Positions 3,673-18,975 of a stretch of DNA of 64,000 nt are shown here, one piece after another. The stretch comes from Pelomonas sp. Root405 (GTDB taxonomy: Bacteria > Pseudomonadota > Gammaproteobacteria > Burkholderiales > Burkholderiaceae_C). Position 1 is the first letter of the stretch. Each line of letters starts with the position of its first letter. The DNA is taken from positions 1,023,311 through 1,087,310 of the forward strand of contig NZ_LMDU01000001.1 of NCBI RefSeq assembly GCF_001425165.1, read 5' to 3'. A program made the position numbers and the translations under genes. The notes below the pieces were generated by a model that was given only the letters and a program-made list of their open reading frames with translations, did not search any database and was not told the DNA's origin.

Positions 3673-4386
3673 ATGTACACGCCCAAAGGCCGCCTCGACA
3701 ACAACACGCTGATCAAGCAGTACAGCCCGTTGGTCCGACGCCTGGCGCACCAGATGATTGCCAAGCTGCCGGCCAACGTCGAAGTGGACGACCTGATCCA
3801 GGTCGGCCTCATCGGCCTGACCGACGCGTTGTCGCGCTTTGACGCCGAGCAGGGCGTGCAGTTCGAGACCTTCGCCACCCAGCGCATCCGCGGCGCCATG
3901 CTCGACGAGCTGCGTGGCGGCGACTGGATGAGTCGCGGCACGCGCCGCCAGCAGCGCGAGATCGAATCCGCGGTGCACAAGGTCGAGCAGCGCCTCGGCC
4001 GTGCGCCGCGCGAGGACGAGATCGCCGCCGAGATGGGCCTGCCATTGGCCGAGTACCAGGACCTGCTGTCCAAGGTGCGCGGCACCCAGCTGGTCTATCT
4101 CGAAGACATGTCCGGCGACGACGGTGACAACGACTATCTCGACCGCCATGTGGCCGACGACAACGCCAACCCCGTCGCGCAGTTGCAGGACCACCGCATG
4201 CGCGAGGCGCTGGTGGCGGCCATCAAGAACCTGCCCGAGCGCGAGCAGTTCGTGATGAGCATGTACTACGAGCACGACATGAATCTCAAGGAGATTGCGG
4301 CCGTGCTCAAGGTCACGGAGTCCCGCGTCTGTCAGCTGCACAGTCAGTCCATTGCAAGGTTGCGCGTTAAGCTGCGTGACTGGTAA
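3673..4386 (+). CDS. fliA: RNA polymerase sigma factor for flagellar operon, sigma-28 (237 aa)
   Basis: FliA directs transcription of late flagellar and chemotaxis genes and is held in check by FlgM, which is encoded at 33.2 kb. Sigma-70 family regions 2 (YSPLVRRLAHQM, DDLIQVGLIGL, FETFATQRIRGAMLDELR), 3 and 4 (LPEREQFVMSMYY and an LKEIAAVLKVTESRVCQL helix-turn-helix) are all present. I chose ATG 3673 over an in-frame TTG at 3652 because GGAG stands 6 nt ahead and MYTPKGRLD is the usual FliA start. The gene is last in the flhA-flhF-flhG-fliA string. A hairpin follows the stop. Confidence 0.96.
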   Translation: MYTPKGRLDNNTLIKQYSPLVRRLAHQMIAKLPANVEVDDLIQVGLIGLTDALSRFDAEQGVQFETFATQRIRGAMLDELRGGDWMSRGTRRQQREIESAVHKVEQRLGRAPREDEIAAEMGLPLAEYQDLLSKVRGTQLVYLEDMSGDDGDNDYLDRHVADDNANPVAQLQDHRMREALVAAIKNLPEREQFVMSMYYEHDMNLKEIAAVLKVTESRVCQLHSQSIARLRVKLRDW

Positions 4387-4389
4387 TTT

Positions 4390-4419
4390 GCGGGGCTGAG
4401 CCCCGCTATACAAGCGGGG
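4390..4419 (+). promoter_or_regulatory. Mutually exclusive hairpins in the chemoreceptor leader
   Basis: Between fliA and the chemoreceptor, GCGGGGC (4390-4396) pairs perfectly with GCCCCGC (4400-4406) around a TGA loop. The same CCCCGC (4401-4406) also pairs with GCGGGG (4414-4419). That second partner contains the GGGGA ribosome-binding site (4416-4420) standing 7 nt before the ATG at 4428. Forming the first hairpin would free the site; forming the second would hide it. No T-run follows, so a terminator is less likely. The pairings are read directly from the sequence; regulation is inference. Confidence 0.5.
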
Positions 4420-4427
4420 ACAAACGC

Positions 4428-5774
4428 ATGTTCGGATGGATCAAGGGGGGCGCATCGCCCGCCGTTGCCGTGGCCGAAGAGCCGAGCCGGCGTGAGGACG
4501 GTGCAGCGCTGAACGTCGTCAAGCGCCTGGCCCGCTCCATCTCCACAGTGGGCAAGGACGCCGCCGAAGTGCGGGGCGCCCTCGAAGACACGCAGCGCGT
4601 CGTGCAGGCCCAGGGCCAGGCGATGCAGGCCCTGGCGCAGCAGCTCAACCAGATCGGTCAGGCCCAGGCGGCCATCGCCACCGCCACCGCCCAAAGCGCG
4701 GCCGCCGTGCAGCGCGCGCGCGGTGCCCTCGGTGTCGTTGGCGGCGAGGTCGTCGGCATGGCCACCACGCTGGCCCAGGTCTCCGACGCGGCGGCCGAGA
4801 TCACCAAGATTTCGCTGCAGACCCGGCTGGTGGCCTTCAACGCCGCGGTTGAGGCCAAGCATGCCGGCGATGCGGGCCGCGGCTTCGCCGTCGTTGCCGA
4901 GGCCGTCAAGGCGCTGGCCGGCCAGGTCGAGTCCTCGTCCAAGGCCATCGTCAGCGCGATCTCCAGCCTGCAGGACCGCATCGACCGCTTCAGCGCCGAG
5001 CTGACCGAGAACAAGGACAAGCCCAGCCCCATCCACGCCGCCTTCCATGAAGTCGAGGAGGATGTGCAGCGCATCTCCGTGTCGGCCGCCGAGAGCGGCC
5101 AGCAGATGAGCCTGCTCAACGAGCGCGCGCATGAGCTGGAGCGTGAGGTGATGGAAGCCTCGCACGGCCTCAAGGTGGCTTTCGACGGCAGCGACCGGTT
5201 CCTGCGCATGTCGGAGGAGCTCGTCGAGCAGATCGCCGAAAGTGGCGTCGAAGTCGACGACATGCCTTTCATCCGTGCCGCGCAGCAGGCGGCCGAGGAG
5301 ATCAGCGCGCTGCTCGAAGACGCGCTGCGCAGCGGTCAGATCAGCCAGGCCGATCTCTTCGACGAGAACTACCGCCCCATCGAAGGCACGAACCCCCAGC
5401 AGCACGCGACGCGCTTCTGCCAGCTGACCGACCGCCTCTTCCCCGCCGTGCAGGAAAAGACGCTGGCCTTCAGCGACAAAGTGGTGTTCTGCATTGCGGC
5501 CGACCGCAAGGGCTATATCGCGACGCACAACCGCAAGTATTGCCAGCCGCAGCGCCCGGGTGACACGGTCTGGAACACGGCCAACAGCCGCTACCGCCGC
5601 ATCTTCAATGACCGCACCGGCCTCGCGTCGGCGCGCAACACGCGGCCCTTTCTGCTGCAGACCTATCGCCGCGACATGGGGGGTGGCCGCTTCGTCATCC
5701 TGAAAGAGGCGGCGGCGCCGATTGTTGTGGCCGGCAAGCACTGGGGCGGCCTCCGCCTCGCGTTCAACTTCTAG
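4428..5774 (+). CDS. Soluble methyl-accepting chemotaxis protein with C-terminal Cache/PAS-like domain (448 aa)
   Basis: Chemoreceptor-type signalling protein. There is no membrane segment, so it should be cytosolic. The signalling hairpin is centred on residues 125-170 (SLQTRLVAFNAAVEAKHAGD, then GRGFAVVAEAVKALA), a variant of the conserved tip that contacts CheA/CheW. After a coiled region, residues about 325-448 form a sensor-like domain (KGYIATHN, RIFNDRTGL, PFLLQTYRRDMG, HWGGLRLAF) of the kind usually found in extracytoplasmic Cache domains, but here placed C-terminal to the signalling part. The gene sits directly after fliA with GGGGA as its ribosome-binding site. Ligand unknown. Confidence 0.85.
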   Translation: MFGWIKGGASPAVAVAEEPSRREDGAALNVVKRLARSISTVGKDAAEVRGALEDTQRVVQAQGQAMQALAQQLNQIGQAQAAIATATAQSAAAVQRARGALGVVGGEVVGMATTLAQVSDAAAEITKISLQTRLVAFNAAVEAKHAGDAGRGFAVVAEAVKALAGQVESSSKAIVSAISSLQDRIDRFSAELTENKDKPSPIHAAFHEVEEDVQRISVSAAESGQQMSLLNERAHELEREVMEASHGLKVAFDGSDRFLRMSEELVEQIAESGVEVDDMPFIRAAQQAAEEISALLEDALRSGQISQADLFDENYRPIEGTNPQQHATRFCQLTDRLFPAVQEKTLAFSDKVVFCIAADRKGYIATHNRKYCQPQRPGDTVWNTANSRYRRIFNDRTGLASARNTRPFLLQTYRRDMGGGRFVILKEAAAPIVVAGKHWGGLRLAFNF

Positions 5775-5890: not shown

Positions 5891-5912
5891 GTCTATCGGC
5901 AGTCTTCGGCTC

Positions 5913-7760
5913 TCACTCGGCCACGCACGCCCGGTTCTTGCCGGTGTGCTTGGCTTCGTAGAGGGCCACATCGGCGCGGTCGAGTGCGGCTTCGAGGGTC
6001 TCGCCCGGGCGGTACAGGGTCACGCCAGCCGAGAAGGTGACGAAGACGTCCTTGCCCTCGTGGTTGAACAACGCCGCCGACAGCGAACGCTGCAGGCGCA
6101 GCAGCACGGCCTGGGCTTCGTCCAGCGGCGTGTTGGGCAGCATCAGCACGAACTCCTCGCCGCCGTAGCGCGCCACCATGTCGCCGGGGCGCAGCGAGGC
6201 CTGGGTGCGCTCGGCCAGCGACTTGAGCGCGATGTCGCCGGCATGGTGACCGAGGCTGTCGTTGAGCTTCTTGAAGTTGTCGATGTCCAGCAGCGCCAAG
6301 GCGACGCGGGTTGACTCGCGCTCGGACTTCGCTTGCTCGATGCCAAAGGCCTGGATCAGGCCACGGCGATTGGCGACCTGGGTGAGCTGGTCGGTGTGGA
6401 CCTCGTTGGACAGCCGGCGAAGTTCGCCCTCCAACTCGTCCACGCGCTGGGTCAATGCGGCGGCGCGGTCGTGCTCCAGCGTCAGGCGTTGCTGGGTCTG
6501 CGCCACGAGCCCCTGCACGCTGCGGCTCTCCTCGACCATCTCACGCACGGTGCCAGCCAGGCTTTCCAGCGAGTCGGCCTGTTCGATGGCCTCGGCGTAG
6601 CGGCCGACGCTGGTCTGGAACCGGTCGGTGTGCTGACCCAGCTCGCCCAGCTCGGCCAGCATGCGCTGGATCAGGCCCTTGAGCGAGTCGCGTGCCCGCG
6701 ATCGCTCATCACGCAGCGCGCGCTGGCGCTCGCGCGTGCCGGTCAGCAGCTCGGACACGGTGCGCACGCCGCGACCCGACAGGCCTTGCGACAGCGCGTT
6801 GTTCATCGCTTCGGCCTGCCCGCGGGCCCAGGAGTCGTCCTCGGCCAGGTCGACCAGGCTGGCACTCAATTCGCGGCACAGGCCGCCGAGTTCGTCGAAC
6901 AGATGGCGGCGGTGGTCCAGCAGGTGGCGGGCACGCAGGCACAGCGCGGCCATCTGCGTGGCGCGCTCGGGGTTGGCGCCGCCGCTCTTGAGCTCGGCCT
7001 GCGCGGCCTCCAGCTCGCGCATCAGTGCGTCGGCCGGCGTGGCCTCGGTCTGTGGCGAGCGCAGCGCGTGGCGTACGGTGGCATTGAGTTCGCCGCTGAC
7101 ATCGGCCCAATGCGGGCTGGCGTCAGCCGGCGTCGGCGCGTCGCGCAGGTCGGTGCGGCTCAGCTCTCCGAATCCGGTGCTTTCGCGGAACCCCGACTCG
7201 GCGAAGGTGCTCTCCGAGAAGAACTGGCTGGGCGTGCCGCCTTCCTCGTCGGTCTCCACGCCGCTGCCGTCGCCGTCCTTGTCCCAGCTGGCCACGAGCT
7301 GGCCCAGCCGCTTGACGAGCTTGCCGCTGTCACTGCGGCCCAGCTCCAACACGCGCTGGATGCCGTCTTTCTTGCGCGCCAGCGTCCAGTGCTTGCCACC
7401 CCGCTCCAGGCCGCGCACCAGGCGTTCGATGGCCTGGGCCAGCGTCTCGGCCTGGGCCGCGGGGCCGGCGACGTCAAGCAGCTTGTCGATCTGGCGCTGC
7501 AGCTCGTCGAGCTTCTGGTCGCGCAGTGCGGTCTGCAGATCCTGGCGAGCGGCGCCGGAGGGCAGGGCCAAGGCGATCAGCTTGGACATCAGCTGCTGCA
7601 GGCGTTCCGGCACGGCGCCATTGGGCGCGGCCGCGGGTTCGCCGCCGCCCTCGATGGCGTAGGCCCGCGCATAGTTCTCGGGGGTCGGTTCCAGCCGGGC
7701 CTGCGCGAGGCGTTGCAGCGCGGCCTTGGCCAACTGGGCCGGCGGCAGTTGCGAACGCAT
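5913..7760 (-). CDS. GGDEF diguanylate cyclase with helical N-terminal region (615 aa)
   Basis: Likely makes cyclic di-GMP from two GTP. The C-terminal GGDEF domain (last ~165 residues) starts at LTQVANRRGL and carries the active-site loop ARYGGEEF plus an RPGD inhibitory site exactly five residues before it, so both catalysis and product inhibition look intact. The N-terminal ~430 residues are helical, with no recognised sensor and no membrane segment, and end in a coiled coil. The start overlaps the stop of the receiver-PAS-GGDEF-EAL gene (TGATG), giving an Hpt, composite, cyclase operon. The input signal is not evident. Confidence 0.9.
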   Translation of the reverse strand: MRSQLPPAQLAKAALQRLAQARLEPTPENYARAYAIEGGGEPAAAPNGAVPERLQQLMSKLIALALPSGAARQDLQTALRDQKLDELQRQIDKLLDVAGPAAQAETLAQAIERLVRGLERGGKHWTLARKKDGIQRVLELGRSDSGKLVKRLGQLVASWDKDGDGSGVETDEEGGTPSQFFSESTFAESGFRESTGFGELSRTDLRDAPTPADASPHWADVSGELNATVRHALRSPQTEATPADALMRELEAAQAELKSGGANPERATQMAALCLRARHLLDHRRHLFDELGGLCRELSASLVDLAEDDSWARGQAEAMNNALSQGLSGRGVRTVSELLTGTRERQRALRDERSRARDSLKGLIQRMLAELGELGQHTDRFQTSVGRYAEAIEQADSLESLAGTVREMVEESRSVQGLVAQTQQRLTLEHDRAAALTQRVDELEGELRRLSNEVHTDQLTQVANRRGLIQAFGIEQAKSERESTRVALALLDIDNFKKLNDSLGHHAGDIALKSLAERTQASLRPGDMVARYGGEEFVLMLPNTPLDEAQAVLLRLQRSLSAALFNHEGKDVFVTFSAGVTLYRPGETLEAALDRADVALYEAKHTGKNRACVAE

Positions 7761-16298: not shown

Positions 16299-17177
16299 TC
16301 AAGGCTGCGTGGGCCTGTCCAGGCCGTGCGCGCCGCTGCCGCCGAGTGGTGGGCCGCTGCGCTCGGCCAGCTCGCGCCAGCTGACTTGCTGGCGCCAGGC
16401 GTGGTCGATGCGGCCTTCCTGGACGCTGCTGTGCTCGGCAAAATAGCGCGATGGCGAACCGCCATAACAACGGCGCCAGACCTTGGCCAGGTGCGACGAA
16501 TCGCTGAAACCGGCGATCTGGGCCACCTCGGTCAGCGAACGGCCGCTGCCGTACAAGGCCGCTGCCCGCTGGATCTTCACCGCCAGGCTGAACTGCCGGA
16601 CGCTGATGCCCAGGGCTTCGACAAAGCGGCGCGAAGCAAGCGTTGCGGACATGCCCACCTGCCGGCCCAGCGCGGCCAGGCTCTGGCCCGGGTCGATCCG
16701 CAGCGAGGCCATCATTTGCAATGCGCGCGCGTCGGGCGGCAGGTAGCGCGCCACGCCGTCGGCCAGGCTGCTGATCTGAAGCTGCATGGCCGCGTGGAGT
16801 TGCCGCCCCGTCAGTGCGCGCATGGCAAAGGCCTGGGCGCACGACAGCAGCCCGGCGAACCGGTGCTCATCGAGAACCAGCACCGGCTCGGCCAGCGCCC
16901 CGCGGCTGAAGGTGCTGTAGCGCGTGTGCGAAGGCTCCAGGTCGACCAATGCCGCCGGGCGCGCGCCGGAATCCATGCGCCGCGCCACGAAGGGCCGCAC
17001 GGCGAGCAGGCGACCGCGCCACTGCTTCGCGCCGACCGACACGGTCAGCGGTTCTTGCGTGAGCGCGCAGGCAATCGTCACCGAGTGCCGGCAGACGTGG
17101 GAGTGGATGGCCGGCGCGGTGTAGATGAAGCAGTCGCCCAGCAAGCCCAGGCGTGTCTGCGATTGAGGGTCAGGCAT
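16299..17177 (-). CDS. AraC-family transcriptional regulator (292 aa)
   Basis: The C-terminal two helix-turn-helix motifs are clear (SLAALGRQVGMSATLASRRF, then SLTEVAQIAGFSDSSHLAKV and WRRCYGGSPSRYF, the AraC signature). The N-terminal half is a poorly conserved effector domain. The start MPDPQSQTRLG at 17177 is chosen because the 17 codons ahead look non-coding. It lies 34 bp downstream of, and in the same direction as, the foldase-like and polyester hydrolase genes. It may regulate them or be cotranscribed with them, but nothing in the sequence proves that. Confidence 0.85.
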   Translation of the reverse strand: MPDPQSQTRLGLLGDCFIYTAPAIHSHVCRHSVTIACALTQEPLTVSVGAKQWRGRLLAVRPFVARRMDSGARPAALVDLEPSHTRYSTFSRGALAEPVLVLDEHRFAGLLSCAQAFAMRALTGRQLHAAMQLQISSLADGVARYLPPDARALQMMASLRIDPGQSLAALGRQVGMSATLASRRFVEALGISVRQFSLAVKIQRAAALYGSGRSLTEVAQIAGFSDSSHLAKVWRRCYGGSPSRYFAEHSSVQEGRIDHAWRQQVSWRELAERSGPPLGGSGAHGLDRPTQP

Positions 17178-17211
17178 GGGGCGCCGATGCTCGGGCAGTG
17201 CGCGGCATGTG

Positions 17212-17919
17212 TCAACGCCGCACGGCACCGCGCTCGACGTCGAAGCGTGCCTGTGCGCGCATGGCCTTCTGCTCCATGCTGAGCGATGCGGTCGTCTCGT
17301 CGCGCATCAGCTCCAGCAGCCGACGCGCGACGGCATCGTCCTCGGCATAGAGCTGTCGGCCCGCTTCGGCCCCGAAGTGGCTGGTCCGCAGCGCCTGCAA
17401 GGTGGTCAGCTGGGCCAGCCCTTCCTCGGGCACCAGCGGCGCCTCGTCGGGCGGGAATGCTGCCCGTTGCGCGGCCTGGTAGTCGTCCATGCGGGCGAGC
17501 AGCTCGCGGGCGCGCGCCGCAGCGGGCGCGGGCAGCCCGGCCAGCTCGGCGTCGAGGCGCGCGGTGCGGTCGGCCCCCTCGTGCAGGGCGAGCAGCTCCT
17601 CGATGCGCAGGCGCAGCAGCTGGTCTTGCACCAGCCGGCCGTGGGCGTCGACTCGGAACGCGCCCTGGCTCGCGCCGGGTGTTGCGGCGGCCAGGCCCGC
17701 TGCCGGAGCAGGGGGCTCGCTGGTCAGCAGCAACGGGGCCGACCCCGTCGCTTGCTGCGCTGCCACCGCGCTGGCGGCCGGCGGAGCGGCGGCTGTTGCG
17801 GGAGCGGCAGCTGACTGTGGTTCGTCGGCGTCCCGGGCTTGCCAGCCCAGCACGCCCAGAACAGCAGCGGCGACCGCAACGGCGAGGATCAGCGGCCGTC
17901 GAACATGCTTTTCAAGCAT
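17212..17919 (-). CDS. Short lipase-foldase (Lif) like membrane protein (235 aa)
   Basis: Lipase-specific foldases are inner-membrane-anchored periplasmic chaperones that fold secreted lipases. Here residues ~8-26 form a membrane anchor, 30-80 an Ala/Pro-rich linker, then a helical domain. FRVDAHGRLVQDQLLRLRIE aligns by eye with the Lif start (F-x-VD-x-x-G-x-L...R...FDYFL), and ALRTSHFG, YAEDDAVARRLLEL, LSMEQKAMRAQ match the middle of Lif. The conserved RxxFDY(F/L)SAxGE motif is degenerate. The protein is about 100 residues shorter than usual Lif, lacking the C-terminal lobe. It starts 25 bp after the polyester hydrolase stop, so that enzyme is the probable client (inference). Confidence 0.65.
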   Translation of the reverse strand: MLEKHVRRPLILAVAVAAAVLGVLGWQARDADEPQSAAAPATAAAPPAASAVAAQQATGSAPLLLTSEPPAPAAGLAAATPGASQGAFRVDAHGRLVQDQLLRLRIEELLALHEGADRTARLDAELAGLPAPAAARARELLARMDDYQAAQRAAFPPDEAPLVPEEGLAQLTTLQALRTSHFGAEAGRQLYAEDDAVARRLLELMRDETTASLSMEQKAMRAQARFDVERGAVRR

Positions 17920-17944
17920 CGAGCATCACCCGCTGCCGGGGCCG

Positions 17945-18802
17945 TCAGTACGGGCAGTTGTCGTTGTAGCGGTCGAAGACCGCCGACGTGGCGTAGGCGT
18001 CATGCGCGGCGCCGCACAGGAAGGGCGAATAGCGCGTGTCGGCATCGACGAAGCGCTTCATCCAGGCCACGCCGTAGCGCCCGATGGGCGTGTTGGTGCT
18101 GTTGGGCGCGAAGTGGCTGGCGCCGTTCAGTTCCGCATAGGCCTTGAAGGTCGTGGCCGGCAGGCTGGCGTAGAACGGCCGGGCGTGGCTGGCGACCCGC
18201 GCGACGCTGTCGCCATCGGCGCCGACGATCAGCGTCGGCACACGCACGCCGTCAAAACGGGTCGAGGTGTTCCACGGGGTCAGCGGCAGTGCGGCCTTCA
18301 GCGTCGGGTTGTTCTGCGCTGCGATCAGGGCGCCGCCGCCGCCCATGGAATGCCCGGCCACCGCCAGCTTGCTGCTGTCGACCCGGCTGCGCACGGTGCT
18401 GCTGGCGCTGTTGAGCACGTGGTTGAGCGCCGCCATCAGCTGCGTGGCGCGGCTGGCCGGCTGGTCATACGTGCTGTTGGTGTTGATGGTGATCACCACC
18501 AGGCCGTGCGTGGCCAGGCGCCGGCCCAGCCAGGCGATGGACGACTCGGTCGCCGTGAAGCCCGGGCTCATCGCCACCACGCCGTATTGGCCGCTGGTGG
18601 TCGGGTAGTAGATGGTGCCGCCACCGAACCCGCGCGGTGAGAACACGCGGCTGCTCGATACCGCGAAGGGGCCTGCGGTGACGTTGAGGCTGGACGACGT
18701 CGGGGTCGGGCCGACCTGCGCCGAGGCCGCGGTGGCCAGGGCGCTGACGGCGGGAACGATGACGGCACGCAGAACGCGTCCCAGCAGGGCTTGCGGTTTC
18801 AT
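17945..18802 (-). CDS. Secreted polyester hydrolase, PETase/cutinase-like (285 aa)
   Basis: Alpha/beta hydrolase of the PETase / bacterial cutinase family (dienelactone-hydrolase fold), probably exported by Sec (signal peptide ~1-28, ending ASA|Q). Catalytic triad: S152 in GHSMGGGG, D198 in VGADGDS, H230 in GASHFAPN. The substrate-site W177 (TPWNTST) is present. Compared with Ideonella sakaiensis PETase, the subsite residues are H151 (W159 there), F231 (S238 there) and F82 (Y87 there). The PETase-specific extra disulfide is absent (A195/A232 region), while the C-terminal pair C263/C283 is kept. This is the actinobacterial-cutinase-like combination. Start ATG 18802 follows AGGAGA. The foldase-like gene follows. 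Confidence 0.9.
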   Translation of the reverse strand: MKPQALLGRVLRAVIVPAVSALATAASAQVGPTPTSSSLNVTAGPFAVSSSRVFSPRGFGGGTIYYPTTSGQYGVVAMSPGFTATESSIAWLGRRLATHGLVVITINTNSTYDQPASRATQLMAALNHVLNSASSTVRSRVDSSKLAVAGHSMGGGGALIAAQNNPTLKAALPLTPWNTSTRFDGVRVPTLIVGADGDSVARVASHARPFYASLPATTFKAYAELNGASHFAPNSTNTPIGRYGVAWMKRFVDADTRYSPFLCGAAHDAYATSAVFDRYNDNCPY

Positions 18803-18939: not shown

Positions 18940-18975
18940 AAAACCCGCACGGCCGCCCCGCACCGGGGGCCGCGC
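18940..18975 (-). terminator. Possible terminator after flgL
   Basis: On the minus strand, just past the flgL stop, GGCCCCC and GGGGCGGCC can form a hairpin with one bulge. It is followed after about seven bases by TTTTT (18940-18944 on the plus strand). The gap to the T-run is longer than ideal, so the call is tentative. It would end the flgI-flgL transcript. Confidence 0.35.

Follow-up and report, generated by a model that had tools for sequence, protein, structure and literature searches.

We find that a gene for a putative secreted polyester hydrolase of the PETase family in the window (the whole stretch of 64,000 nucleotides analysed here) lies directly beside a gene for a short relative of the lipase chaperones of the Lif family, and it is this Lif-like gene, absent from the preliminary description of the locus, that makes the locus unusual. 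With a probability of roughly 0.7, the Lif-like protein is dedicated to the PETase, as its foldase or escort in the periplasm ahead of type II secretion. This reading draws on the family membership and residues of the hydrolase, on the chaperone homology, predicted fold and truncation of its partner, on the adjacency of the two genes and their mirrored trees, on purifying selection and on the presence of the GspD secretin. No report of a PETase/Lif-like pairing was found in searches of the open-access literature; a paper that brings together a polyester and a lipase chaperone (PMC13101487) deals, in its available text, with a Burkholderia system in which a classical lipase with its chaperone acts on mcl-PHA.

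The hydrolase and its Lif-like neighbour

The hydrolase gene occupies positions 17945-18802 on the minus strand, opens with ATG and encodes 285 amino acids with a signal-like stretch at the N-terminus. Residues 25-284 match the Pfam PETase family PF12740 with 360.4 bits (E 7e-108; curated cut-off 28), and in alignment with Ideonella sakaiensis PETase (IsPETase), whose reference sequence equals the PDB entry over all 263 residues, 128/256 aligned positions are identical, which bears out the homology to this enzyme claimed in the preliminary description. The Ser-Asp-His triad had been correctly named as S152, D198 and H230 (codons 18347-18349, 18209-18211 and 18113-18115, respectively, all on the minus strand), with the nucleophile in a GxSMGG motif (GHSMGG), and its placement derives from alignment to solved homologues. 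W177 is likewise intact and, together with M153, is as expected from IsPETase, and H151, F231 and F82 stand, as had been read, at the positions of IsPETase W159, S238 and Y87. In addition, H206 and F210 take the place of S214 and I218, the loop following the catalytic His is shorter than in IsPETase, the C-terminal cysteines C263/C283 are retained, and A195/A232 occupy the positions of the additional disulfide C203/C239. The absence of this disulfide had thus been recognised, but its description as exclusive to PETase does not hold, since PMC5785972, in its available text, assigns it to type II enzymes as a whole; both cysteines are also present in several relatives. Arg202 (18197-18199) aligns with IsPETase Pro210, a position taken by Pro, Ser, Gly, Thr or Asn in the relatives aligned.

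An AlphaFold2 model of the hydrolase, made from an input alignment of 20 sequences, has a mean pLDDT of 88.4, with residues 1-25 mostly below 50, and matches PETase and cutinase structures over ~260 columns, the best being 8eu0 (Foldseek; E 7.5e-42, TM 0.85/0.93). The closest matches in the PDB are ancestral PETases and Thermobifida cutinases. Comparison with characterised enzymes and with the PETase fold, both suggested earlier as checks, therefore came out in favour of the proposed family, and the cutinase-like active site and the family assignment are supported by profile, PDB matches and alignment alike. Type I enzymes are described in the available text of PMC5785972 as having His and Phe/Tyr at positions 159/238 and neither the additional disulfide nor the extended loop; the window enzyme has His/Phe at these positions without the additional disulfide or extended loop, and it departs from the IsPETase-like type IIb at H151, F231 and A195/A232 and in its short loop. 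As its active-site residues fit the type I features, the hydrolase on its own is, judged from its sequence, an ordinary type I member of the PETase family, with close relatives in several Burkholderiales records and a putative activity on polyesters. The active-site residues were dropped as the main finding because ordinary type I enzymes have them as well.

The Lif-like gene (17212-17919, minus strand) is separated from the hydrolase stop by 25 nt (17920-17944) on the same strand and encodes a 235-amino-acid, membrane-anchored periplasmic protein, the probable dedicated chaperone of the hydrolase. It matches PF03280 with 20.9 bits (E 3.7e-4), under the curated cut-off of 25.7, and NF002334 with 39.6 bits (E 3.3e-10), under the equivalog cut-off of 285. 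In an alignment of this protein with its relatives (A1), 13/13 members match both models at E <=0.01; they match no Pfam family besides PF03280, and a single member has an extra weak NCBIfam match, to an unrelated Dps model. When compared with the PDB, the A1 profile returned three chains at E <=10, all of them lipase chaperones. Ten other partners likewise all match PF03280, eight of them over the cut-off, and every one of these matches ends by position 100 of 192.

Lif-like residues 9-29 (17833-17895, minus strand) form a predicted N-terminal transmembrane helix, seen as a low-confidence model helix with a hydropathy maximum of 2.22, and residues 86-233 (17221-17664, minus strand), mostly with pLDDT >90, form a folded part that is predicted to correspond to mini-domain 1 of Lif together with the initial helices of its extended helical domain. 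The model aligns with Acinetobacter Lif (9g8u_B; Z 12.0, rmsd 5.5, 152 residues aligned), Burkholderia glumae Lif (2es4_E; Z 11.4, rmsd 5.0, 140 aligned) and the isolated mini-domain 1 of P. aeruginosa (Z 5.5, rmsd 2.0, 66 aligned), well clear of the best unrelated chain at Z 4.2, and these values are to be read with the caveat that Z below about 13 in helical proteins can reflect a common arrangement. Using Foldseek the match to Lif is modest (E 3.6e-4, TM ~0.45/0.39) and the only one below E 0.001, and the likeness of the modelled fold to Lif is partial.

Compared with Lif, the protein ends ~100 residues early and so has neither the C-terminal half nor mini-domain 2 within it. This half is not encoded by the window in a separate ORF nearby, and among 32 PETase loci an ORF containing it was found at one only (L040). 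A model of the C-terminal half recovers seven full-length Lifs, which are its own building set, so that this recovery is by construction and no independent control. At L040, a PETase gene has a short, divergent Lif-like gene on one side and, on the other, a longer Lif-like ORF that includes the C-terminal half (4000-4851, 5912-6946). According to the available text of PMC7046727, Lif consists of mini-domain 1 (helices 1-3), the extended domain (helices 4-8) and mini-domain 2 (helices 9-11), with helices 1, 4, 5, 7, 9 and 11 contacting the lipase; since the model of the window protein shows six folded helices beyond the linker, it would, mapped by helix order, keep three of these six contact helices. 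The RXXFDY motif, in the same source strongly conserved and inactivating when mutated, is also missing, and where RXXFDY(F/C)L(S/T)A would stand the window protein reads RLRIEELLAL, with FDY at this place in 0/31 aligned partners. Because the C-terminal half and this motif are both missing we name the partner Lif-like rather than Lif, though it may still act in the manner of one. The partner gene is under purifying selection, with dN/dS of 0.09-0.31 in five pairs, for which the hydrolase values are 0.08-0.57.

Linkage of PETase and Lif-like genes across genomes

Relatives of the hydrolase were collected by short peptide patterns as 40 genome-contig loci, and a Lif-like ORF adjoins the hydrolase at all 13 proteobacterial loci and at 0/27 actinobacterial loci, some of which are short. 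A draw of 399 genomes from the family held 23 PETase genes in 12 genomes (E 1e-20): a Lif-like ORF is the immediate neighbour of 20 of them, two more come second in a tandem in which the first gene adjoins such an ORF, and a single gene (L054) has none. Likewise, among 369 genomes drawn from the class both PETase genes outside the family have an adjacent Lif-like ORF over the Pfam cut-off, and an order draw of 399 genomes returned no PETase besides that of the window at E 1e-20, a cut-off at which distant family members are missed. The locus set and the genome draws overlap, with L093 identical to L003 and with G218, G241 and G762 being records of L005, L006 and L014. Among 250 genomes of the family, a Lif-like match is present in 7/7 of those with a PETase compared with 8/243 others (Fisher 5.8e-10). 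This count is in part circular, in that the partners of G000, G218 and G241 are in the profile built from PETase neighbours; the four other PETase genomes are absent from that profile. Two genomes were counted here as having Lif only, namely G028, whose match (L070) reads unlike Lif and was kept as a conservative choice, and G220, though it has a PETase fragment at a contig end (L065). Partner scores with the A1 profile vary widely, with a minimum of 28.7 bits at L046 in the locus search, and the partner at L046 was not reported by the whole-genome search for Lif-like proteins.

Five PETase-family paralogues are free of a partner within about 6 kb (L054, L085, L089, L090 and L091), and three of these lack M161 and/or W185, which is the case for 0/31 paired enzymes. 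A weak Lif match near L089 proved, on the larger stretch L112, to be a PAAR protein, and L089 was therefore counted as unpaired. The two genes of a pair are co-directional in 21/31 cases and divergent in 10/31. Within the six genomes of the window's genus in the family draw, only the window's genome has a PETase, and in the genus of Piscinibacter aquaticus (eight genomes) that genome alone has one; at its locus (L036:4871-5830) hydrolase and regulator each lie in two frames, either from a sequencing error or because the gene is broken. Five PETase-family genes each are present in G738 and G642. At L005 and L008 (2.8-5.8 kb) one Lif-like gene is flanked by two PETase genes, an arrangement in which a single partner may have two clients; at these two loci the enzyme encoded upstream has Ser at position 238.

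The hydrolase tree and the partner tree correlate at 0.77 over 31 pairs, a value reached in 0/5000 shuffles. When partners were re-paired within the five multi-pair genomes, only two of 1152 arrangements reached the observed correlation, these being the true pairing and an exchange between the near-identical L099 and L100, which scores marginally higher, and with the duplicate pair dropped the correlation was 0.766 over 30 pairs, still with 2/1152 re-pairings. Shared ancestry accounts for part of the tree correlation and linked inheritance alone can mirror trees; therefore we take the result as a sign of stable, paralogue-specific pairing and not of contact.

The linkage extends to IsPETase, as a protein in G053, presumably I. 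sakaiensis, is identical to the mature enzyme over 263 residues and a divergent Lif-like gene of 251 residues starts 216 bp upstream of it. The product of this gene scores 60.1 bits with PF03280 (cut-off 25.7) and E 3.9e-27 with NF002334. Enzymes of G212 and G738 that are 96-98% identical to IsPETase have a Lif-like neighbour too. In G738, two of the PETase-family genes are 96-97% identical to IsPETase.

Following the Lif-like gene in the window is a gene for an AraC-type regulator (16299-17228, minus strand; PF12833 E 8e-16), whose annotated GTG start gives a 17-nt overlap with the Lif-like gene and may be too early. A relative of this regulator follows the unit at 8/13 proteobacterial loci, at six of them immediately next to the Lif-like gene and at L005 and L008 after the second PETase, and the window's flanking flagellar and signalling genes are found at 0/13, from which we conclude that the cassette moves as a unit. 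Between flgL and the hydrolase gene there is a terminator-like stem with a T run (18947-18963, minus strand), a weak candidate given that two such stems were found and 1.1 expected. In the window's genome there are a single PETase gene, a single Lif-like gene, the only PF03280 match there, and a GspD secretin above cut-off. With the classical-type lipase L066 as the only query, no close relative was found in this genome (best match 27% identical, E 2.4e-4), and on these two counts, the single PF03280 match and the distance of the best match to this one query, the idea that the Lif-like gene serves a classical lipase elsewhere is unsupported.

Proposed role of the Lif-like protein

We propose that the hydrolase would be made with a signal sequence and exported by Sec, to be received by a Lif-like chaperone that would be anchored in the inner membrane and face the periplasm. 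This chaperone would bind the incoming hydrolase through mini-domain 1 and the initial helices of the extended domain and would help it to fold, or hold and escort it, before the type II secretion system carried it across the outer membrane to hydrolyse polyester outside the cell; the AraC-type regulator would complete the cassette. Because the C-terminal half of classical Lifs is missing, the Lif-like protein probably grips its client on one side only and is an aid more than an obligate steric foldase. Secretion in Actinobacteria does not cross an outer membrane of this type, which fits the lack of a Lif-like gene at all 27 of their loci.

Within this reading, a substantial but minor share of the odds goes to escort alone, whereby the folded hydrolase would be delivered to the type II system or shielded from proteases with its folding unaffected. 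The genome of the window has the secretin that such a route would use, and the available text of PMC4713064 proposes membrane-associated chaperones of type II secretion as a class that includes Lifs and CpaB and reports that deletion of CpaB leaves the client made but not secreted. However, the predicted fold is that of a foldase, and on present data escort is inseparable from folding assistance.

Lif homology, and with it a mini-domain 1 that in P. aeruginosa is the part essential for folding (PMC7046727, available text), would also suit an obligate steric foldase, with the hydrolase staying in an inactive near-native state until converted by the Lif-like protein, as for family I lipases. We regard this as improbable, since the C-terminal half and RXXFDY motif of Lif are absent, no such gene was found beside the 27 actinobacterial homologues, and active IsPETase has been obtained from E. 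coli, the available text of PMC11587651 making no mention of a Lif-type partner. The latter makes an obligate role unlikely at least for IsPETase itself, and its low soluble yield, a reported obstacle in the available text of PMC13072736, leaves room for a helper.

Lower again stand the chances of a periplasmic inhibitor, by which the Lif-like protein would silence the hydrolase until secretion, as a one-sided binder could do by occluding the active site. Lif family members of known function activate their clients, which argues against such a role. The tight binding of lipase by a classical Lif (29 nM; PMC7046727, available text) would be in keeping with it. Finally, that the neighbour is a degenerating Lif gene, there by chance or hitch-hiking, as the truncation relative to classical Lif might suggest, is strongly disfavoured by its presence at 13/13 proteobacterial loci in both orientations and several contexts, by purifying selection and by the paralogue-specific pairing.

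Returning to the periplasmic foldase or escort as the preferred reading, we think it rather probable that Gram-negative PETases, IsPETase included, are clients of short Lif-derived chaperones, and that a native PETase needs its partner for full yield, activity or export. If so, production of the widely studied and engineered IsPETase has lacked the partner that naturally serves its folding or secretion, the lipase-foldase family would extend to a further family of clients, and half of the foldase scaffold would prove able to suffice. If partner genes are common at Gram-negative PETases, co-expression would be a simple production test, and no report of a PETase co-expressed with a Lif-like partner was found in the open-access literature. 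Furthermore, the Lif-like partner would be a genomic marker for further polyester hydrolases in Gram-negative bacteria.

Comparison with known systems

Lif-like genes also have neighbours of other kinds. At L063 (1171-2109, 458-1492) and L064 (1435-2373, 2124-3185) a short Lif-like ORF adjoins a PHB depolymerase-type esterase (PF10503, E about 1e-28) in genomes without a PETase match, and clients of the Lif scaffold may include further polyester hydrolases. Full-length Lifs adjoin a protein with the motif GFSQGS at L075 (1054-2127, 2192-3127) and L076; the L075 protein matches no Pfam family at E 0.01, and the two possibly represent a candidate hydrolase family with foldase partners. At L061 (1165-2757, 2160-3056), a full-length Lif-like protein follows the gene of a PPIC-type prolyl isomerase and not that of a hydrolase.

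Like the type I PETase-like enzymes TfCut2 and the cutinases (PMC5785972, available text), the window enzyme combines the triad and His/Phe at 159/238 with a short loop and no additional disulfide; unlike them, it has a Gram-negative host and a chaperone-like neighbour gene. IsPETase belongs to the same family, and the gene identical to it also has a Lif-like neighbour, but it differs from the window enzyme in W159, S238, the C203-C239 disulfide and the extended loop of type IIb, and its partner lies divergently upstream whereas that of the window lies downstream.

With Lif/LipB/LipH (PF03280; 2es4, 9g8u, 6gsf) the window partner shares a predicted membrane anchor, variable linker, mini-domain 1 and first extended-domain helices, as well as a gene adjoining that of a secreted hydrolase. 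It differs from Lif in the loss of the last ~100 residues, mini-domain 2 and RXXFDY, and in having a PETase and not a family I lipase as its neighbour. Likewise, the type II secretion chaperones LipB and CpaB (PMC4713064, available text) have a single N-terminal membrane helix, a periplasmic body and a gene beside that of the secreted substrate, a likeness for which we infer type II secretion of the window hydrolase; unlike the window partner, CpaB has another domain (SRPBCC).
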